Positions 11,039-24,308 of a stretch of DNA of 64,000 nucleotides are shown here, piece after piece. How positions within the stretch are numbered: the first letter of the stretch is position 1; the number at the start of each line of letters is the position of its first letter. A program made the position numbers and the translations under genes. The stretch lies in contig SKVJ01000057.1 of assembly GCA_007129495.1 (NCBI GenBank), positions 1 through 64,000 on the forward strand. The letters are read 5' to 3'. This stretch comes from Dehalococcoidia bacterium. Its GTDB lineage: Bacteria; Chloroflexota; Dehalococcoidia; GIF9; AB-539-J10. The notes below the pieces were generated by a model, which did not search any database, was not told the DNA's origin, and saw only the letters and a program-made list of their open reading frames with translations.

Positions 11039-12079
11039 CTAGCAGATACGTGGAAGCAGTTCGCCGGCAAGCATCTGCACCAGCCTGGTGGGCCCCATGC
11101 GGGTGCGCATCATAACCCTGCCGCTCTTTTCGCTGATGATTTCTCCGACGATGGTGGCATCATTGCCCAGAGGGTGACGGCGCATCGCTTCGATCATATC
11201 CTCTGCCTGTTCCTCCGCCACGACGGCCACCAGTTTCCCCTCATTTGCCACGTAGAGTGGGTCGAGGCCCAGCATCTCGCATGCCGCTCGCACTTCCTGG
11301 CGGACAGGGATGGCGGATTCGTCGATGACGATGCCCACGCGTGACTGTGATGCTATCTCGTTGAGCGTCGTGGCCAATCCTCCACGCGTCGGATCACGCA
11401 TGGTATGTACGGCATCTGTCGATTGTGCCAGCATCGCGCACACCAGTCCATTGAGCGGAGCACAATCGCTGATTACAGTTGTCGAGAACGACAGCCCCTC
11501 ACGGGCGCTCATGATCGCTACTCCGTGTTCTGCGATACTACCGCTCAGTATGACTTTATCGCCTGTCTTCGCTCGTCTGCCGGATATGTCGAGGCCCTCC
11601 TGCACGAATCCAATGCCTGATGTGGTGATGAAGAGGCCGTCTGCCTTGCCGCGGTTGACGACCTTCGTGTCTCCCGTGACCACGCGAACCTTCGCTTCGA
11701 CACACGCCTTGTGTACCGATTGCATCACAACGTCCAACGTGTGAAAGGGAAGGCCTTCCTCAATTATCAGTGCAAGGCTCAGACAGACGGGTTCTGCACC
11801 AACCATAGCCAGATCGTTCACAGTCCCGCACACCGCAAGCCTGCCTATATCGCCACCTGGGAAGAGGATAGGTGACACTACGTAGCTGTCGGTCGTAAAG
11901 GCGATACGGGTCGCAGAATTCAGCACCGCGGAGTCGTCAAGTCTATCCAAGGCCGCGTTCGAGATTTGTGCGAGTAGTCGCTTCTCGACCAGCTCGTGAC
12001 TCATCGTCCCGCCGCTGCCGTGTGCCAGCAGCACAACATCGTCGGACCCGTAGCCGTTCACTTGAGTGTGAATTCCCAT
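11039..12079 (-). CDS. hypE: Hydrogenase maturation protein HypE
   Basis: HypE accepts the carbamoyl group from HypF on its C-terminal cysteine and dehydrates it to the cyanide ligand of [NiFe] hydrogenase. The 346-residue product has the ATP-site start LLAHGSGGTMSHELVEKRL, the TGDTKVVNRGKADGLFITTSGIG core and ends with the required PRIC tail (Cys346). Its start overlaps the end of the preceding uncharacterised gene by 22 bases. It closes a long leftward run; the next gene downstream, livF, converges on it with a 71-base gap. Confidence 0.95.
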   Translation of the reverse strand: MGIHTQVNGYGSDDVVLLAHGSGGTMSHELVEKRLLAQISNAALDRLDDSAVLNSATRIAFTTDSYVVSPILFPGGDIGRLAVCGTVNDLAMVGAEPVCLSLALIIEEGLPFHTLDVVMQSVHKACVEAKVRVVTGDTKVVNRGKADGLFITTSGIGFVQEGLDISGRRAKTGDKVILSGSIAEHGVAIMSAREGLSFSTTVISDCAPLNGLVCAMLAQSTDAVHTMRDPTRGGLATTLNEIASQSRVGIVIDESAIPVRQEVRAACEMLGLDPLYVANEGKLVAVVAEEQAEDMIEAMRRHPLGNDATIVGEIISEKSGRVMMRTRMGPTRLVQMLAGELLPRIC

Positions 12080-12609
12080 TTACAGCACATTCCCTGTTTG
12101 TCCTCGCGGGGAGGGAGGACGAGGGGTTCCACCCTGATGTCGGGGTTGAAAAACGCGGCGTATTTCCCAAGCACAGCGGCATCCACCTCGCTGCAGATCT
12201 GGCTCTCGCGGCCTTGCCCCTCCTTCTCCATGCCCTCAAGGATAGAGCATTTCGTAACGGTCATGAGACCCCGTTTGGGAGACTCCAGTTCAAGGTGGTA
12301 CTCGGCTACATGCATCCATGGTACGATCTGCAGGAATTTGAACAGCGCATCTATGCCGTTGCCCTCGATGCCTGCAAGCGGGACCAGCCGTTTCAACTCG
12401 TAACGAGTCGACTTATCCCAGACCCAATGATCTACCGTCAGCGCGGTCTCGTTATCGATGTGTTCTTTGACTCCGATGTACCAGAATCCATCGATAGCCA
12501 TGTACGTTCTGCCGTAGAAGTGGAGCAGTTCGGTCAGGAATTCCTTGGAGAAGTCGGAGAACCGCAAATCAGGACGAAACTCGCCGCTATAGTCCTTAAG
12601 CTCGCTCAT
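12058..12609 (-). CDS. Uncharacterised cysteine-containing protein in the hyp run (DUF6125-like)
   Basis: The ATG chosen here is preceded by AAGGAGG with a 12-base gap and gives 183 residues; an upstream open extension overlapping hypD looks non-coding. The N-terminal half is mixed helical with aromatic residues. The C-terminal half has Cys121 in a TVTKC segment, Cys139, and a Cys-Cys pair (175-176) in the ending GMCCKWEFTLK, plus a VLPPRED turn. This pattern resembles what I recall of DUF6125-type proteins, with moderate trust. It sits between hypD and hypE, spaced 49 bases from the first and overlapping the second, so it is translated with the maturation genes. A role in metal-centre or hydrogenase biology is only inferred. 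Confidence 0.75.
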   Translation of the reverse strand: MSELKDYSGEFRPDLRFSDFSKEFLTELLHFYGRTYMAIDGFWYIGVKEHIDNETALTVDHWVWDKSTRYELKRLVPLAGIEGNGIDALFKFLQIVPWMHVAEYHLELESPKRGLMTVTKCSILEGMEKEGQGRESQICSEVDAAVLGKYAAFFNPDIRVEPLVLPPREDKQGMCCKWEFTLK

Positions 12610-12658
12610 GATGGCCGGATGCCTCCTTATAGTGCGGATTGGGGTCTCAGACAGTATG

Positions 12659-13747
12659 TCATGCGTGTAACGAATATGCGAAGTGAGCAGCACACGCTCC
12701 CTCCTGTGAGACCATGCAGGGGCCGACCGGACGCTGGGGGGAGCAGGCAGCGCCGAACAGCGGGCAATCTGAGGGCAGCAAGCTTCCCCGCAGCACATCG
12801 CCGCAACGGCAGCCCGGCGGTTCCGCGGCCATCTGGACATCTACTTCGAATATGGCCAGCGCATCGAACCTCTCGAATTCATGTCGAACTCCGAGTCCGC
12901 TAAGCGGCACCATGCCTATTCCTCGCCAGTCCGCGGTGCAGGATGTGAAGACTCGCCCCATGTGTTCCTGCGCTGCCTTATTGCCTTCCGGTGTGACAGC
13001 ACGTGTGTAGGTATTTGCTACTGACGGTGTGCCGCTCTCATGCTGCTGCACTAGCAGCTCAATGGCCCTGAGGATATCGAGTGGCTCGAATCCAGCGACA
13101 GCGCATCCCACGCCGAATCGGGCGGGAAGGCTCTCATACGGCTCTGTTCCGGTGACGACGCTCACATGGCCGGGACAGATGATGCCGTCGATGTGCACCT
13201 CACCAAGAGAAAGCAGGGCCTGAATCACCGGCGGGGTAACTTTGAGCAATGAGAGTATGTGGTAGTTTCGCAGTTGCCTGCGAGACGCCTCGAGGACCGA
13301 GGCCGCCACGGTGGGTGCGGTGGTTTCGAATCCTATGCCGATGAGGATGAGTGGTCGCGACGGGTTTTGCTCGGCGATGGCTAGGGCGTCCCTCGCTGAA
13401 TAGACTACCCGAACATCAGCGCCGGCTGCTCTCGCTTGTTCCAGGCTGCAGTGACTGCCCGGAACCCGTACCAGGTCGCCATACGTAGCGACTATGACGC
13501 CAGGAGTCATTGCCAGGGCGATTGCCACATCTATGTCATGCGTTGAAGTGACACATACAGGACAGCCGGGACCGGATCTCATGGTAATGGTAGGTGGCAA
13601 CAACTCGCGGATTCCATGACGTAACAGCGCGTGCGTGTGACTGCCGCAGAACTCCATGAACTGTGCCGGCTTCGTGGAGGTTCGGGCTATGCGCTCCGAA
13701 ATGCTGCGTGCGATTGCCGGGTCGTGAAACCCGTCAATGAAAGTCAC
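12659..13747 (-). CDS. hypD: Hydrogenase maturation protein HypD
   Basis: HypD forms the HypC-HypD scaffold on which Fe(CN)2CO is built. The GTG chosen as start overlaps hypC by 14 bases and gives 362 residues, the usual family length. Conserved elements are FMEFCGSHTHALLRHGI (scaffold Cys), GPGCPVCVT, GFETTAP and a C-terminal cysteine cluster for the [4Fe-4S] centre (C-R-C, then C-P-L-F, then GPCMVSQEGACAA). All expected cysteines are present, so the protein should be functional. Confidence 0.94.
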   Translation of the reverse strand: MTFIDGFHDPAIARSISERIARTSTKPAQFMEFCGSHTHALLRHGIRELLPPTITMRSGPGCPVCVTSTHDIDVAIALAMTPGVIVATYGDLVRVPGSHCSLEQARAAGADVRVVYSARDALAIAEQNPSRPLILIGIGFETTAPTVAASVLEASRRQLRNYHILSLLKVTPPVIQALLSLGEVHIDGIICPGHVSVVTGTEPYESLPARFGVGCAVAGFEPLDILRAIELLVQQHESGTPSVANTYTRAVTPEGNKAAQEHMGRVFTSCTADWRGIGMVPLSGLGVRHEFERFDALAIFEVDVQMAAEPPGCRCGDVLRGSLLPSDCPLFGAACSPQRPVGPCMVSQEGACAAHFAYSLHA

Positions 13748-13961
13748 TGAGTTCCGCCATTTCCCTGAACAACGCCAGAGTCTCTTCAGCTTCCTCCGGC
13801 TTGAGGATGCCGATCGAGTATCCAGTGTGCAGCAAGACGTAATCCCCAACCTTAACCTGGGGAGTCAGCATCGTACCTATAGTCCTGCGAAGTCCGCCGA
13901 TGTCGACCTCGGCGCTGTCGTCGTGCAGAGAGAGTATTAGTGCGGGAATCGCAAGGCACAT
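13734..13961 (-). CDS. hypC: Hydrogenase assembly chaperone HypC
   Basis: The start at MCLAIPALI gives 75 residues, the normal HypC size, and places the essential Cys at position 2. The small beta-barrel sequence continues with AEVDIGGLRRTIG and VKVGDYVLLHTGYSIGILKPEEAEETL, all typical. There is no clear Shine-Dalgarno before this ATG; a 78-base gap separates it from hypF. The 3' end overlaps hypD by 14 bases. Confidence 0.93.
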   Translation of the reverse strand: MCLAIPALILSLHDDSAEVDIGGLRRTIGTMLTPQVKVGDYVLLHTGYSIGILKPEEAEETLALFREMAELSDFH

Positions 13962-14039
13962 AACGAAGACATTGTAGCCCGCTTGATATGCCCTGTACAA
14001 ACCAAACGCGCTGTCCCGACTTCCGCACGTGTGTCGCAA

Positions 14040-16400
14040 TTACTTGAAACAGGCTGCCGTGACTGCCTGTCCCAGTGATACGCAGCCATCGTTAGGAGGG
14101 AGATGACGGTGCCGTATCACTTTAAATCCGTCGGCGCGCATTTGGCGTGACACCATTTCAAGGAGAATTGTGTTCTGAAACACCCCGCCACTCAGGGCGA
14201 TGGTTCGGATGCCGGTGTCACTTGATATCAAACGACAGACTTCACAGGTGATGACGCTTACTGATTCGTGGAAAGCAGCTGCGATCACCGGTATACCGAC
14301 ATCATGTTCGATGTCTTGCAGCACCGCTTCGAGCACATCCGCTATTCTCAGGAGGTATCCTTCATCCGTGCGGTCGATACCGAAGTGGTAGCGGTCAAGT
14401 GGTGACACCGCGTGGCATTTATGCGCCTGCATTTCCAATTCGATGGCTGCCTGTCCATCGTAATCTATGGTGCCTCTGACGCCGGTGAGAGCGGCAATTG
14501 CGTCGAACAGGCGTCCCATGCTCGATGTCAGCGGGGTGTTGAGGTGGCTCTCGATCTGACGGAGAATCGTCTCCCGCTCCACAGTTGCCGATGAGAGTCT
14601 CAGCGCACTACTTCGCTGCAGGGACTGCTCACCCAGGAGTGTTGCCAGGTATGCTGTTGCGGTACGGTATGGACGAAGGATTGCAGCGTCGCCACCGGGT
14701 AACGGCAGGTACTCGAGGTGGGCGGCGCGTCTCGAGGTCGAAAGATCGGCGACCAGGAACTCGCCACCCCAGATGTGGCCATCACTTCCGAGACCTGAAC
14801 CATCGAAGGCAACGCCTATAACGGGGTCCTCAACCCCGTTTTCCACCATACAGCTGGTGATATGCGCATGGTGATGCTGCACCGCAACACTCTTCAGCCC
14901 GGTCGCAGCCAGTTGTCGCGCATATGTGGTCGATGCGTAGTCAGGATGGAGATCGTGGGCGATGATCTCTGGCTCGATGCCGAACAGCCTTCGGTAGAGT
15001 GCGATCGTCGTCTCGAAGTGGTCCAGAGTCTCGATGCTGTCGAGGTCGCCTATGTGTTGAGAGACAAATGCGCGATGTTTGTGTGCGAGGCAGAATGAAT
15101 TCTTGGCCTGCGGGCCCACGGCCAGAACCGCGGGAGAATCCAGGGGGAGCTGGATGGGGTAGGGAGCATAGCCTCTTGCCCGACGGAGTATGTGCGGTTC
15201 GTCATCGGTAATCATTGCAACACTGTCGTCATACCGGGAGTGGATTTGCCGGTTGTGAAGGAGGAAGTAGTCGGCGATAGTATGAAGGCGCGATAGCGCC
15301 TCTTCATTCTCTGCAGCTATGGGTTCCTCACTCAGATTGCCGCTTGTCATAACAAGCGGACAGTCGAGTTCTCTCAGCAATACGTGATGTAGTGGTGTGT
15401 ACGGCAGCATGATGCCGAGGAACGCGAGACCGGGGGCCACGTCCGGGCAGATAGTCGACTCCGCCTTCCATCGGGAGAGCACGATGGGAGCGGCGTGAGA
15501 CAGCAGGAGAGTCTCTTCCTCCGTGGTCAGTTCGCAATGCATCCGAGCTGTCTGAATATCGCGTACCATGATGGCGAAGGGTTTCGACGGGCGCTGTTTC
15601 CGCTGGCGCAGCTCTTGTACGGCCGACGATGCGGTCGCATCGCAGGCGAGCAGGAAGCCCCCCAATCCCTTTACCGCAACGATACGGCTGTCGCGAAGGA
15701 GCGTTGCCGTTCGTGCAATGGGGTCGACGACGTGCACAGCTTCTCCGCTGCTGTCAACCAGGCTCAGTTGGGGGCCGCACACCGGACAGGCATTCGGCTG
15801 CGCATGGAAACGGCGATTGGCCGGATCTTCGTATTCCTCACGGCACTCCGGACACATGGTGAAGTTCGCCATTGTTGTGTGTGCCCGGTCATACGGCATG
15901 TCGGTGATGATGGTGAATCGTGGGCCGCAATTAGTGCAGTTGGTGAATGGATAGCGGTAGCGACGGTCTTTGCAGTCCAGCACCTCGGCCATACACTCGG
16001 TGCACGTGGCAACATCGGGCGAAATGAGTTGGCCTTTGTCCGGTGCGAACTGGCTCTCCAGAATCTCGAAGCGTGTTGAACCCTGCGCACCTACCCTCTC
16101 GGCCTCAATGTGGTGAATACGTGAAAGCGAAGGTGCTGCTGTCCGGAGGGAATGGATGAACTGCTGCACGCTCTGGTGTGGCCCCTCCACCTCGATACGT
16201 ACATCCTGGGACGTGTTCCGCACCCATCCGGTTAGTCCGAGTTGTGTGGCGAGACGGTACACAAAAGGGCGGAAACCTACGCCTTGAACGACACCCTCGA
16301 TATAGAGCCGGACGCGGTTGCGACCGGGAGCTCCGCTGTCAGAGCGTGCGTCACGCGAGTTCAATCCGCCGGATGCTGATTTCGCAGCCATGTTACCCAT
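14040..16400 (-). CDS. hypF: Carbamoyltransferase HypF
   Basis: HypF makes carbamoyl-adenylate from carbamoyl phosphate and passes the carbamoyl group to HypE. The 786-residue protein has an acylphosphatase domain (~28-115, EGVVQGVGFRPF), two zinc-finger units (CTEC...CTNCGPRFTI and CPEC...CPVCGP, ~133-210), a YrdC-like domain (~225-410) and a Kae1-like C-terminal domain with HHHAH and the GVAFDGSGLG motif. It lacks nothing expected of full-length HypF. Its first 40 bases overlap the end of hypB; an ATG three codons in is an alternative start. Confidence 0.95.
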   Translation of the reverse strand: MGNMAAKSASGGLNSRDARSDSGAPGRNRVRLYIEGVVQGVGFRPFVYRLATQLGLTGWVRNTSQDVRIEVEGPHQSVQQFIHSLRTAAPSLSRIHHIEAERVGAQGSTRFEILESQFAPDKGQLISPDVATCTECMAEVLDCKDRRYRYPFTNCTNCGPRFTIITDMPYDRAHTTMANFTMCPECREEYEDPANRRFHAQPNACPVCGPQLSLVDSSGEAVHVVDPIARTATLLRDSRIVAVKGLGGFLLACDATASSAVQELRQRKQRPSKPFAIMVRDIQTARMHCELTTEEETLLLSHAAPIVLSRWKAESTICPDVAPGLAFLGIMLPYTPLHHVLLRELDCPLVMTSGNLSEEPIAAENEEALSRLHTIADYFLLHNRQIHSRYDDSVAMITDDEPHILRRARGYAPYPIQLPLDSPAVLAVGPQAKNSFCLAHKHRAFVSQHIGDLDSIETLDHFETTIALYRRLFGIEPEIIAHDLHPDYASTTYARQLAATGLKSVAVQHHHAHITSCMVENGVEDPVIGVAFDGSGLGSDGHIWGGEFLVADLSTSRRAAHLEYLPLPGGDAAILRPYRTATAYLATLLGEQSLQRSSALRLSSATVERETILRQIESHLNTPLTSSMGRLFDAIAALTGVRGTIDYDGQAAIELEMQAHKCHAVSPLDRYHFGIDRTDEGYLLRIADVLEAVLQDIEHDVGIPVIAAAFHESVSVITCEVCRLISSDTGIRTIALSGGVFQNTILLEMVSRQMRADGFKVIRHRHLPPNDGCVSLGQAVTAACFK

Positions 16401-17023
16401 TCTGCCACGCCCTCGCCGGTCTTACACGATAGTTGGAAGAACTGGACGCGTGCATTCAGGTTGCGCACTGCCTGGGTGAACCTGTCTATGTCAAAATCAA
16501 CGTATGGCAGGAGGTCGGATTTGTTGATAATGACTGCATCTGCCTGAGCGAAGATGACCGGGTACTTCAACGGCTTGTCATCGCCCTCGGGAGTGCTTGT
16601 AATTACCACTTTCAGATGCTCACCCAGATCAAACTCCGAGGGGCAGAGAAGGTTACCGACGTTCTCAATGAGCACGAGGTCGAGTTCGTCCAGGGGCAGC
16701 CGGGCAAGCGCGACCTGGACCATATCTGCGACGAGTGCGCAGCTCTCAGGCATCCCTTTCGTATTGATCTGCACGACCGCATTGGCGACATCGTTAACCT
16801 TTTCAGCGTCCACCGTGGAGACGACATCGCCCTCGATGACGCCGATGCGAGTATCTTCATGCAGCGCCTCGATGGTGCGAAGTATGAAACTGGTCTTCCC
16901 TGCGCCGGGAGCGGACATAATGTTGACTGACACGCATTTGTGCTGGTCAAGAACCGCGCGGTTGCCCTTGGCAGTTGCTTCGTTTGCATGCAGGATTCCC
17001 TGCACTATCTCGATCTTCCTCAC
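16361..17023 (-). CDS. hypB: Hydrogenase nickel-incorporation GTPase HypB
   Basis: This 220-residue SIMIBI-class GTPase delivers nickel to hydrogenase with HypA. It shows the P-loop (SAPGAGKTS, ~38-46), the switch region IENVGNLLCPSEFDLGEH and the NKSD base-specificity motif (NKSDLLPYVDFD). The N-terminal CxxCGC metal motif and the His-rich tract of some HypB proteins are absent, so only the GTPase-domain metal site remains. It overlaps hypA by four bases (ATGA). Confidence 0.94.
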   Translation of the reverse strand: MRKIEIVQGILHANEATAKGNRAVLDQHKCVSVNIMSAPGAGKTSFILRTIEALHEDTRIGVIEGDVVSTVDAEKVNDVANAVVQINTKGMPESCALVADMVQVALARLPLDELDLVLIENVGNLLCPSEFDLGEHLKVVITSTPEGDDKPLKYPVIFAQADAVIINKSDLLPYVDFDIDRFTQAVRNLNARVQFFQLSCKTGEGVAEWVTWLRNQHPAD

Positions 17024-17361
17024 GATACTTCCATCTCCTTAATGTAGAGTTCGCGGCCACCCTCGATGTCCGCTTCGGAGGAGCCGCATACCGGGCACGT
17101 CCATTCCCTGTCGGCGGGTATGAATACTTCGGAACAGACCCGGCAGCGAAGTCTTACTGGAAGCTCTTCGAACTCAAGCCTTGCCCCCTCCGCTATGGTG
17201 TTCTTGCTCATGGTCTCATAATAGAACTGAATGCAGTCTGGCACAAAACCTGTGAGGGCGCCGACAACTACACGTATCGTCGCCACTTTGGTGACGCCAG
17301 CTTCTCTTGCTCTGTCTTCTACGATCTGCAGAAGACTCTCGGTGATTCCGTATTCGTGCAT
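17020..17361 (-). CDS. hypA: Hydrogenase nickel metallochaperone HypA
   Basis: The start at MHEYGITESL gives 113 residues with the nickel-binding His2/Glu3 directly after Met1. GGAG lies nine bases upstream. The zinc site is complete: CRVC and CPVCG separated by 13 residues (~74-94). It lies 22 bases after nusB, which links the maturation genes to the housekeeping genes upstream. Confidence 0.94.
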   Translation of the reverse strand: MHEYGITESLLQIVEDRAREAGVTKVATIRVVVGALTGFVPDCIQFYYETMSKNTIAEGARLEFEELPVRLRCRVCSEVFIPADREWTCPVCGSSEADIEGGRELYIKEMEVS

Positions 17362-17383
17362 ATTCACTATCTCCGCATTGCAA

Positions 17384-17809
17384 TCACTGAACACCGCGTG
17401 TCTGGCTTCTGTTCTGATCTGCGACGGAGCCCAGCACGCCATGTACCAGCCTGGGAGAGGCGTCCCCTCCGAACTCCTTCGCAAGTTCGACCGCCTCATT
17501 GATCACCACCTTCAGAGGATTCTCATCTGTGAAGATCATCTCGTAGAGCGCAATACGAAGGATGGTACGGTCGACGGGCGCCATCTGGGCGACGGGAAAT
17601 GCGGGCGCGTGCTGCTGTATGATGGAGTCTATCTGCCGTTGATACCTGCGAACTCCTGTGACCAGGGATGTTACGAAGTCGTAGGTGTCCTCCTTGATGC
17701 TGTCGTCGTAGGCGAGACGGGCAAGGACCTCATCTTCCTTATGGGCCGTGTAGTCCAGTTCGTAGAGGATCTGGACGGCGATGCTACGCGCTCTGCGACG
17801 GGAGGTCAT
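17384..17809 (-). CDS. nusB: Transcription antitermination factor NusB
   Basis: NusB joins NusE, NusA and NusG at boxA in rRNA antitermination. The 141-residue protein begins with SRRRARSIAVQILYELDY and has the VDRTILRIALYEM and VVINEAVELAKEFGGD helices, all diagnostic for the family. It starts two bases after the fabD stop and precedes hypA, in the middle of a leftward run. Confidence 0.94.
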   Translation of the reverse strand: MTSRRRARSIAVQILYELDYTAHKEDEVLARLAYDDSIKEDTYDFVTSLVTGVRRYQRQIDSIIQQHAPAFPVAQMAPVDRTILRIALYEMIFTDENPLKVVINEAVELAKEFGGDASPRLVHGVLGSVADQNRSQTRGVQ

Positions 17810-20927: not shown

Positions 20928-22313
20928 ATGGTGGAACAGAGTAAGCTCCCACCGCACGACGTCGAGGCGGAAGAGGCGCTGCTCGGGTCGTTGCTTATCG
21001 ACCCGGATGCCATTCTGAAGGTCGTTTCCTTTCTCAAGGCAGAGGACTTCTTTGATGAACTGAATGCCTCTGTGTATGGTGCATGTGCAAACCTCTATCG
21101 CCGCAGCGAGGCAATAAACCAGATCACCGTTGCGCATGAATTGATGCGCCTGGGCTTGCTTGAGCACAGTGGAGGAGCATCAAATCTCAATCGCCTTATC
21201 GGCAGTGTGCCGACATCCCTGCATGCAGAGTTCTACGGACGAATCGTCGAACGGATGTCGCTCATGCGCAAACTCATAGTGGCCGGCCGGCGGATTGCCG
21301 CCATCGGATATGAGGCTGGTTCTGATACCGATGAAAGTCTGAGCCAGGCCGAGGAGGCGCTTTTCAAGGTTCGCTCCCGTGACAGTACGCGAGATTTTGT
21401 GTCCATTCGTGACGTCCTCGATGGTTATTTCAACGATGCCGGTCGTGTAGTGGATGAAGCTTCGGAAGGTCTGGCAAGTCTTAAGACAAGTTTCCCAGGT
21501 TTGGATGGTCTGCTGGGGGGGTTACAGCGTTCCGATCTCATTATCCTGGCTGCACGGCCCAGCATCGGCAAGACAACGCTGGCGCTCGATATCGCACGCA
21601 GGGCGGCAGTGGAACAGAAGGCCTGTGTTGCCCTTTTCAGCCTCGAAATGTCGGCGGAGTCTGTGGTTCAGCGTATGCTGTCTGCAGAATCCGATGTGGA
21701 TTTCTGGCAGGTCAGAATAGGTAAGTTCTTTGAACGTGAGGAACGGAAAATCATGGATGCCGCGGGGGTACTATCCGATGCAAGCATCTACATCGATGAC
21801 ACTCCCCAAGTCGGTACTATGTCTGTCCGGAGCAAAGCGAAGCGATTGGACTTCGAGCGGCGTCTCGATCTCGTCATCGTCGATTATCTCCAACTCATCG
21901 AAGGTGAAGGAAGACGGGAAACCCGTGTACAGGAACTGAGCCAGATCACCCGCTCGCTCAAGCTGCTTGCCCGCGAATTGAATGTTCCGGTCATCGCCGT
22001 CTCACAACTGAGCCGTGCGGTCGAATGGCGTGCGTCGCATGTACCGCAACTCGCAGATTTGCGGGAATCCGGTACAATCGAGCAGGATGCCGACATCGTC
22101 TTGTTCATTTATCGAGAGGATAAATATGTGAGCGAAGAGGAGTGGAACCGGCTGCATGACATTATGGGGGAGCCTTATCCACGGGGAATTGCCGATGTCA
22201 TTGTGGCCAAGCATAGAAACGGACCGCTCGGACAGGTGAAGATGCAGTTCGTGGATCGGGTAGTACGCTTCGATCAGTTGGGGCAGGGCGCTACCTCGTC
22301 ATCGATGATTTAG
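20928..22313 (+). CDS. dnaB: Replicative DNA helicase DnaB
   Basis: This 461-residue hexameric helicase has the N-terminal PHDVEAEEALLGSLLIDPDAI domain, a P-loop ARPSIGKTTLALDIA, the SLEMS motif, the Walker B DYLQLIEG and the arginine-finger region KHRNGPLG. The length and motif order are normal, and no intein is present at the P-loop. It lies 9 bases after rplI and 17 bases before the DnaD-domain gene, which groups a helicase with primosome partners. Confidence 0.95.
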   Translation: MVEQSKLPPHDVEAEEALLGSLLIDPDAILKVVSFLKAEDFFDELNASVYGACANLYRRSEAINQITVAHELMRLGLLEHSGGASNLNRLIGSVPTSLHAEFYGRIVERMSLMRKLIVAGRRIAAIGYEAGSDTDESLSQAEEALFKVRSRDSTRDFVSIRDVLDGYFNDAGRVVDEASEGLASLKTSFPGLDGLLGGLQRSDLIILAARPSIGKTTLALDIARRAAVEQKACVALFSLEMSAESVVQRMLSAESDVDFWQVRIGKFFEREERKIMDAAGVLSDASIYIDDTPQVGTMSVRSKAKRLDFERRLDLVIVDYLQLIEGEGRRETRVQELSQITRSLKLLARELNVPVIAVSQLSRAVEWRASHVPQLADLRESGTIEQDADIVLFIYREDKYVSEEEWNRLHDIMGEPYPRGIADVIVAKHRNGPLGQVKMQFVDRVVRFDQLGQGATSSSMI

Positions 22314-22330: not shown

Positions 22331-23005
22331 ATGACTGGCCGTGTCTCGTATTCTGCAGCGCAGCCTGGTTTATTTGTCCAGGTTCCGGGAGCCTATGTTA
22401 CTCTGGTGATGCGCCAGGTTGACCGTCTTGCAGAGCTGAAAGTCACGATACTCGCCTTCCACTTGCTGAGCAGGTCGCGAGACTATCCGGGGTACGTAAC
22501 GCATGCGGATCTGGTATTGAGAAGTGCCTCAGTGCTGGGCATTGAGGAAACCGAGTGCAGTGACGCTATTGAGGCAGCTGTTGGCCGCGGTGTCTTCTTG
22601 AAGATCGAGTTGATTTTGGAGGGAACCACTGCGGTGGCGTACTTTGCCAATGTAGAAGCTGATCTTGAGGCTATTGAGCGGCTGAAGGCATCGGGTTTCT
22701 CCGGTGGCGGAGGAGTTGCGGGGGCGCCGAATATCTTTGAATTGTATGAACAGAATATCGGCGTTATCACGCCTATGATGGCGGAGGAGTTGAAGGATGC
22801 ACAGAAAACATATCCTGCGGGATGGATTGAAGAGGCATTTCGGGAGGCCGTGAAGGCGCGCAAACAGAACTGGAGATACGTTAGCAGGATTCTCGAACGC
22901 TGGACTGCAGAGGGTAAGGTAAGTGGAGCACATAGACCGGGTGCTGGCCCGGATGACCCGGATAAGTACGTCAAAGGCAGATACGGACGCATCGTCCGAC
23001 GCTGA
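22331..23005 (+). CDS. DnaD-domain replication protein
   Basis: This 224-residue protein has an N-terminal winged-helix-like region (~25-100) and a DnaD/DnaB_2 domain (~130-190) with the motif IFELYEQNIGVITPMMAEEL, PAGWIEEAFREAVKARKQNW and YVSRILERW. The tail is basic. DnaD-type proteins help load the helicase at origins and restart forks in Firmicutes. Its position between dnaB and a DnaC-like loader supports such a role. Its 3' end overlaps the loader gene by 83 bases. Confidence 0.87.
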   Translation: MTGRVSYSAAQPGLFVQVPGAYVTLVMRQVDRLAELKVTILAFHLLSRSRDYPGYVTHADLVLRSASVLGIEETECSDAIEAAVGRGVFLKIELILEGTTAVAYFANVEADLEAIERLKASGFSGGGGVAGAPNIFELYEQNIGVITPMMAEELKDAQKTYPAGWIEEAFREAVKARKQNWRYVSRILERWTAEGKVSGAHRPGAGPDDPDKYVKGRYGRIVRR

Positions 23006-24308
23006 CGCCGCGATCGTTTCGCGACAAGACTCACGCGGCGACAGGGCTGTCCAGTGCAGTGTGTGTCGGGATGTGGGCTTTGTACATCCGGTGTCATCCT
23101 CCGGACAGCCGGACTATTCACGGGCTGTTCCCTGCGTCTGTCGCACGCAGGCACTGGTGCGGCAGAAACAGACCTTGCTTGAGCGATACAGCAACCTCGG
23201 CTATCTTGCACACTACTCATTTGAAACGCTCCAAACTGCGGGACGGACCCAGTCGATCCAGGGCTACCCCACGGCCTGCGAGGCTGCTCGCCGCTATGCG
23301 GCGGAACCGCTGGGCTGGATCATACTGGTTGGACCGATGGGCAGTGGGAAGACTCATTTAGCCTGTGCTATTGCAAATGCGAGGCTAGCGCAGGGGCAAT
23401 CCGTCTTCTACATAAGCGCGGCCGACTTGTTGGATCACCTTCGGGCCGCCTTTAGTCCGGGCAGCGATATCAACTATGACGATCTATTCACCCAAGTTCG
23501 AAATACACCGCTTCTGGTGCTCGATGATGTGAGAGCGGAAGGTTCCAGTGAATGGGCTCGCCAGAAGCTCGAGCAGATTCTGAACCACAGATACAACCTC
23601 AAACTGCCAACTGTGATTACGACAGATGCAGTGCCTGATGAACTCGATCCTGTGGTTGGTGCCAGATTCGTCGACTCCACACTTTGCTCGGTCCTGATGC
23701 TCGGCCAGACACGTAACAGCGGATTGGAGACACCTGCTCTTCCCGAAGGCTTGAAACTAGAGACATTCGAGAATTTCGATTACCATCGCACAGAGCTTTC
23801 GCGTGAGCATCAGCACAATCTTGAGATCGCCTACGAGCTTGCGTTCGAGTTTGCCCGGCAACCGGAAGGCTGGCTGATGTTTCAGGGTACCCATGGGTGC
23901 GGGAAGACGCATCTTGCCGCAGCGATTGCCAATTTCCGTCTTGCATCCAATGAACCTGTCTTCTTCGTCGTCGTGGCTGACCTGCTCGATTATCTGCGAT
24001 CTGCATTTGGCCCGGACAGTCGTGTGTCCTATGCCAGATTCTTCGAGGAAGTGAAACAGAGCCCACTGCTGATCCTCGACGATTTTGGCGAACAATCAAG
24101 TACTTCATGGGCTCGATCCAAGCTGTTCCAGCTCATCAACCACCGCTACAACGCCCGGCTGCCGCTGGTCGTTACGACGTGTCTGTCTCTTGACGAGATG
24201 GAGGTCCGTATCAGTTCGCGATTCGCGGATCCCAGGTTCGGGACTGTGTTCAATATACTGGCTCCACACTACAACGTAGATGTGTACGATCACCGTCCTC
24301 TTCCCTGA
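22923..24308 (+). CDS. Tandem DnaC-like AAA+ helicase loader
   Basis: This 461-residue protein carries two DnaC/IstB-type AAA+ modules in one chain. Module 1 has Walker A GPMGSGKT (137-144) and Walker B LLVLDD (197-202); module 2 has GTHGCGKT (322-329) and LLILDD (382-387). Each is followed by a matching helix with WARxKL and LINHRYN/ILNHRYN, so the second arose by duplication. The N-terminus has a Cys cluster (C45, C48, C71, C73) like the zinc-binding region of DnaC-type loaders. Both P-loops look intact. Start is a GTG with AAGG upstream; an ATG ten codons later is an alternative. Its place after dnaB and the DnaD gene points to helicase loading. Confidence 0.88.
   Translation: MEHIDRVLARMTRISTSKADTDASSDADAAIVSRQDSRGDRAVQCSVCRDVGFVHPVSSSGQPDYSRAVPCVCRTQALVRQKQTLLERYSNLGYLAHYSFETLQTAGRTQSIQGYPTACEAARRYAAEPLGWIILVGPMGSGKTHLACAIANARLAQGQSVFYISAADLLDHLRAAFSPGSDINYDDLFTQVRNTPLLVLDDVRAEGSSEWARQKLEQILNHRYNLKLPTVITTDAVPDELDPVVGARFVDSTLCSVLMLGQTRNSGLETPALPEGLKLETFENFDYHRTELSREHQHNLEIAYELAFEFARQPEGWLMFQGTHGCGKTHLAAAIANFRLASNEPVFFVVVADLLDYLRSAFGPDSRVSYARFFEEVKQSPLLILDDFGEQSSTSWARSKLFQLINHRYNARLPLVVTTCLSLDEMEVRISSRFADPRFGTVFNILAPHYNVDVYDHRPLP

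Follow-up and report, generated by a model that had tools for sequence, protein, structure and literature searches.

The window, a 64,000-nucleotide stretch of Dehalococcoidia DNA, carries on its minus strand a hydrogenase maturation operon with the gene order hypABFC-D-X-E, where X denotes an additional gene lodged between hypD and hypE. Pfam matches confirm hypA (17020-17499 as listed, with an internal true start), hypB (16361-17023), hypF (14040-16400), hypC (listed at 13734-14039, with translation probably beginning at the internal MCLAIP), hypD (12659-13849 as listed; the true start is internal, probably near 13730) and hypE (11039-12079), the last also recognized by TIGR02124 (E 2e-133) and ending in the canonical PRIC C-terminus. 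The X reading frame (12058-12609) comprises 183 codons from an ATG at 12609 to a stop at 12058 on the same strand and encodes a DUF6125 protein of 183 aa with conserved cysteines at 121, 139 and 176. The ATG is preceded, at a distance of 12 nt, by a Shine-Dalgarno-like AAGGAGG that was read by eye (12622-12628, minus strand). Given that hypD ends at 12659 and hypE starts at 12079, X follows hypD after a gap of 49 nt and is overlapped by hypE over 22 nt; the preliminary description was correct both in this arrangement and in naming the cyanide-ligand machinery as the neighbourhood of the gene. X is present as a single copy in its genome and is probably translated together with hypE.

Orthologs of X were sought in 100 relatives and in 52 genomes of its Dehalococcoidia family. 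A close ortholog was recovered in nine genomes of the family, and eight of these, six in the window's genus and one in each of two other genera, preserve the order hypC-hypD-X-hypE. The orthologs in this slot are 66-90% identical in five further genomes of the window's genus and 49-52% identical in the two other genera; X is therefore no chance reading frame, and both the gene and its operon are real. Seven of the eight genomes retain the 22-nt overlap with hypE, whereas the eighth (G020, locus L098) has a 15-nt gap instead and, after hypE, a hydrogenase maturation protease-like gene. The ninth family ortholog (L010, genome G013) sits behind a 2-oxoacid:ferredoxin oxidoreductase and outside any hyp operon, and one incomplete assembly of the window's genus (G001) contains neither HypD nor X. 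HypD was found in 71 of the 100 relatives. X is missing from all 30 hyp loci examined in relatives whose genomes lack a hyp-linked copy, 29 of these loci being from the same order: no DUF6125 gene lies between hypD and hypE in 29 of the 30, and the remaining locus is cut off by a contig end ahead of hypE. X is thus not needed for maturation in general. Checked as the preliminary description had proposed, the gene stays inside hyp operons in eight genomes of three genera and is absent from the 30 other loci.

Specificity of X for one hydrogenase type was considered and rejected, as the large subunits of the X-carrying genomes differ and none is shared among them that other genomes lack. The highly conserved HypD loop that usually reads TTFGDM, and that adjoins the residue equivalent to E. 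coli D98, reads ATYGDL in each of the six genomes of the window's genus that bear hyp genes. This variant was likewise rejected as a HypD signature of X, being confined to that genus: L098 carries X together with the usual TTFGDM, and L097 has an intermediate loop. HypD proteins of the window's genus also have the lowest Pfam scores among the full-length HypD proteins of the relatives. Elsewhere in the window, on the plus strand, a single reading frame at 22923-24308 encodes a tandem pair of mutually similar DnaC/IstB-like AAA+ halves (GWIILVGPMGSGKTHLACAIANARLA... and GWLMFQGTHGCGKTHLAAAIANFRLA...) and lies directly behind a gene for a dnaB-like replicative helicase (20928-22313); it is possibly a duplicated and fused helicase loader.

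Pfam assigns X to DUF6125 (PF19620) with 62.3 bits against a cut-off of 27 (E 7.3e-17), covering positions 2-164 of 164, which bears out the family resemblance noted earlier. X scores above the gathering threshold over the whole domain and keeps DGxW, D60, W64 and the three cysteines, but differs from other DUF6125 proteins in its placement in a hyp operon. No NCBIfam family matches X, no match was returned when solved structures were searched by sequence, and the literature searched yielded no paper on DUF6125. Sensitive profile comparison, which the preliminary description had proposed, links X to the ATC-hydrolase family and only weakly to V4R. Against ATC-hydrolase family members, hhalign comparison gave probabilities of 86-88% (E 3e-6 to 5e-6) in one set-up and 73.5% (E 3e-5) in another, with 60 shuffled controls and the reversed ones all at or below 0.5%, and the three X cysteines line up in the alignment. 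Judged from these profiles, X is homologous to the ATC-hydrolase family, sharing with it the C-terminal half, the spaced cysteines, an NP motif and a final C-x-[WF]. However, X finds no match to the ATC-hydrolase model PF14196 in Pfam at E up to 1, and an ATC-hydrolase activity of X would be hypothetical. Direct membership in V4R was rejected: Pfam gives no match to PF02830, and the profile link reaches at best 5-7% probability (E 0.005-0.008), which is not significant.

The AlphaFold model of X (pLDDT 92.8) returned, among its top Foldseek matches against the PDB, mostly H-NOX proteins, V4R sensor domains (MopR, DmpR and PoxR) and TRAPP/Bet3, with probabilities up to 0.99, E-values of about 0.02 (best 0.016) and TM-scores of 0.4-0.57. 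With moderate confidence, these matches indicate a fold class rather than a close relative, the predicted fold of X appearing similar to that of the V4R domain of the phenol sensors. HNOB, V4R, ATC hydrolase and MetOD1 have been united in one group by their fold and three conserved cysteines (PMC5847659), and X fits this grouping. The likeness to MetOD1, a domain of methanogen signal proteins with three conserved cysteines, is drawn by description only (PMC5847659). Profile comparison and the AlphaFold/Foldseek results together place X, at moderate strength, in the H-NOX/V4R/ATC-hydrolase superfamily.

Alignment of 49 sequences revealed W43, A56, D60, C121, C139, P156 and C176 as invariant, and D40, G41, Y44, W64, R134 and W178 as nearly invariant. 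The cysteines singled out earlier as conserved-looking (121, 139 and 175-176) thus include three that are invariant and one, C175, that varies, being mostly Y, F, W or H in many relatives. No histidine occurs among the invariant or nearly invariant columns, so that the heme-ligating residue expected of an H-NOX protein has no conserved counterpart. In distant members of DUF6125, L021 for one, the pattern is C-x22-C-x2-C-x10-C, where X has C139-x22-P162-x2-L165-x10-C176; in all hyp-linked members the middle two cysteines are gone, replaced by P or Y at 162 and by L (V in one) at 165, while the outer two remain and C121 and C175 are present. The MopR sequence has the spacing C155-x22-E178-x2-C181-x7-C189, and these four residues we take to be its zinc ligands. 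Their count agrees with the three cysteines and one glutamate that hold the MopR zinc (PMC10715001). Set against the V4R spacing C-x22-[EC]-x2-C-x(7-10)-C, the first and last zinc-ligand cysteines have counterparts in C139 and C176, but P162 and L165 occupy the middle positions, and the V4R zinc site is incomplete in X. The three-cysteine site that does persist may be functional.

A scan for X in one genome per species (84,980 species) detected 45 loci, nearly all in Chloroflexota, and of 151 genomes drawn evenly from the phylum only four contained any DUF6125. Relatives of X elsewhere are 31-49% identical to it, lie outside hyp operons and carry the same conserved residues, with D40, W43, C121, C139 and C176 present in nearly all. 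Outside the family of X, none of the 45 loci lies inside a hypCDE cluster; hypB/hypA-like genes occur 3 kb from a broken copy in a Syntrophaceae bin (L131), behind ETF genes. A search of viral contigs found no relatives. Neighbouring genes, identified by eye from translations, recur inconstantly and include acyl-CoA dehydrogenase, enoyl-CoA hydratase, CoA transferase, SDR, nitroreductase and 2-oxoacid:ferredoxin oxidoreductase. DUF6125 stands beside acyl-CoA dehydrogenase and enoyl-CoA hydratase in L106, beside SDR in L100, L105 and L110, beside CoA transferase and ETF in L131, and beside 2-oxoacid:ferredoxin oxidoreductase in L010/L077, where the nearest non-hyp relative within the family is the last gene of the oxidoreductase operon (L077:9702-12846). 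Tandem DUF6125 pairs were seen at L107:7001-8107 and L125:7001-8109 and could mean paired subunits in other lineages. A block of P-loop NTPase, archaemetzincin-like protease, DUF6125 and Rossmann-type protein genes recurs in relatives of the same order (L129:5900-8809 and L134:5888-8733, probably also L123). A tie between X and hyp genes as a general rule is accordingly not supported, since 30 hyp loci lack X and relatives beyond the family group are not found inside hyp clusters. The preliminary description had held that a widespread family without a hydrogenase connection would refute its proposal; such a connection is lacking for DUF6125 at large and present in this sublineage, as follows from the eight-genome hyp slot on one side and the 30 loci without X and the relatives outside hyp operons on the other. 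The association of X with hydrogenase genes is local to one sublineage of one family of anaerobic Dehalococcoidia.

Synonymous divergence was saturated in most pairs, and L004/L005 provided the one young pair with unsaturated dS. In this pair dN/dS was 0.18 for X, 0.14 for hypD and 0.19 for hypE, from which it is clear that X evolves under purifying selection much like its two neighbours. Between the window and L002, dN was 0.059 for X, 0.168 for hypD and 0.151 for hypE, making X the slowest of the three in the window's subgroup, whereas the order is reversed in L004/L005 (0.061, 0.029 and 0.046, respectively). HypD and HypE (11039-13849, minus strand) therefore change faster than X in the window's subgroup. 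The X tree splits the hyp-linked sequences into two groups, and the AU test does not reject their union in one clade (p 0.25). Nor are the X-carrying rows monophyletic in the HypD+HypE tree, for which a single clade comes close to rejection (p 0.065). Both tree tests allow one early insertion with losses or two arrivals. The simplest account would be an early insertion of X in the family followed by losses.

The reading we favour, at a rough probability of 0.45, is that X assists the HypCDE step as an accessory that is particular to this lineage and not essential. In that step, cyanide ligands are formed on the HypE C-terminal cysteine as thiocarbamate and then thiocyanate, and are passed to iron on HypCD (PMC12130793). 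Encoded between the scaffold HypD and the cyanide donor HypE, X would work as a stand-alone DUF6125 protein whose putative C121/C139/C176 thiolate site may bind a small ligand or a metal ion; it would tune, protect or repair Fe(CN)2CO assembly without forming an obligatory step. Conserved place, gene overlap and constraint make an accessory the simplest reading, and the wide distribution of DUF6125 makes it simplest to regard X as non-essential and its basic chemistry as not specific to hydrogenases. The retention of hypC-D-X-E in eight genomes of three genera, though X diverges to 49% identity, argues for a role on HypCDE, where X presumably acts. Against this stand the 30 hyp loci of relatives without X, the non-hyp relatives (31-49% identical) with the same residues, the faster change of X than of hypD in L004/L005 and the non-exclusive hydrogenase types of the X-carrying genomes; moreover, a gene position can be inherited without functional contact. 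The hydrogenase or metal accessory role suggested in the preliminary description accordingly stays at the level of inference. A partial parallel is offered by HypX, a much larger protein that supplies CO under oxygen. HypX takes part in hydrogenase maturation as an extra protein that not every system has (PMC12134894); X resembles it in this respect, but has 183 aa and belongs to another family.

The main rival, which we rank below an accessory role and hold only tentatively, is that X keeps a general DUF6125 function, possibly one in the anaerobic metabolism of carbon linked to CoA esters or ferredoxin, and is carried in an operon whose expression suits it without contacting Hyp proteins. The non-hyp relatives adjoining ferredoxin oxidoreductase, acyl-CoA, SDR and CoA transferase/ETF genes with the same conserved residues speak for it, as does the lack of X in most hyp operons of the family; yet the neighbours of those relatives are diverse, with no constant partner, and X has retained its hypD-hypE slot and the 22-nt overlap even as its identity has fallen to about 50%. 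It is unlikely that X is instead a V4R-type redox, metal or small-molecule sensor controlling hyp expression or HypCDE activity. The Foldseek resemblance of X to V4R and H-NOX sensors would suit such a role, as would its three conserved cysteines; the methanogen regulator MsvR, whose V4R cysteines control DNA binding, is a precedent (PMC3729527). However, Pfam reveals no DNA-binding or output domain in the 183 aa, the conserved heme histidine is missing, the V4R zinc ligands are incomplete and the V4R sequence link is weak.

An S-cyanylated cysteine can cyclise to an aminothiazoline ring, and we know of no described hyp system with a repair or clearing step for the HypE cyanylated cysteine or for aminothiazoline. 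Since aminothiazoline is the substrate of the related ATC hydrolase, X might hydrolyse it, or thiocyanate itself, when either arises through breakdown of the C-terminal HypE cysteine in its S-cyanylated form. The product that ATC hydrolase forms from L-ATC is S-carbamyl-cysteine (PMC10821248), which by chemical analogy corresponds to the carbamoylated C-terminal cysteine that precedes thiocyanate on HypE (PMC12130793). This correspondence and the significant profile similarity, with three aligned cysteines, are set against the absence of a PF14196 score, the occurrence of relatives without hyp genes and the abundance of hyp systems without X. That X is an enzyme dedicated to repair or clearing in [NiFe]-cofactor synthesis, acting on the cyanylated cysteine or on released aminothiazoline, is speculative and, in our estimate, highly improbable. 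We give practically no weight to a spurious or decaying reading frame, as X is intact in eight genomes, has low dN and a dN/dS below 0.2, is preceded by a good ribosome site and is predicted to adopt a confident fold (pLDDT 92.8).

Anaerobic synthesis of the Fe(CN)2CO group is ascribed to the six Hyp proteins as a set. An additional conserved gene that lies between hypD and hypE, and whose product is kin to an enzyme that opens the aminothiazoline ring, is a concrete candidate for a hitherto undescribed accessory or repair step, and X offers a first functional hook for DUF6125.
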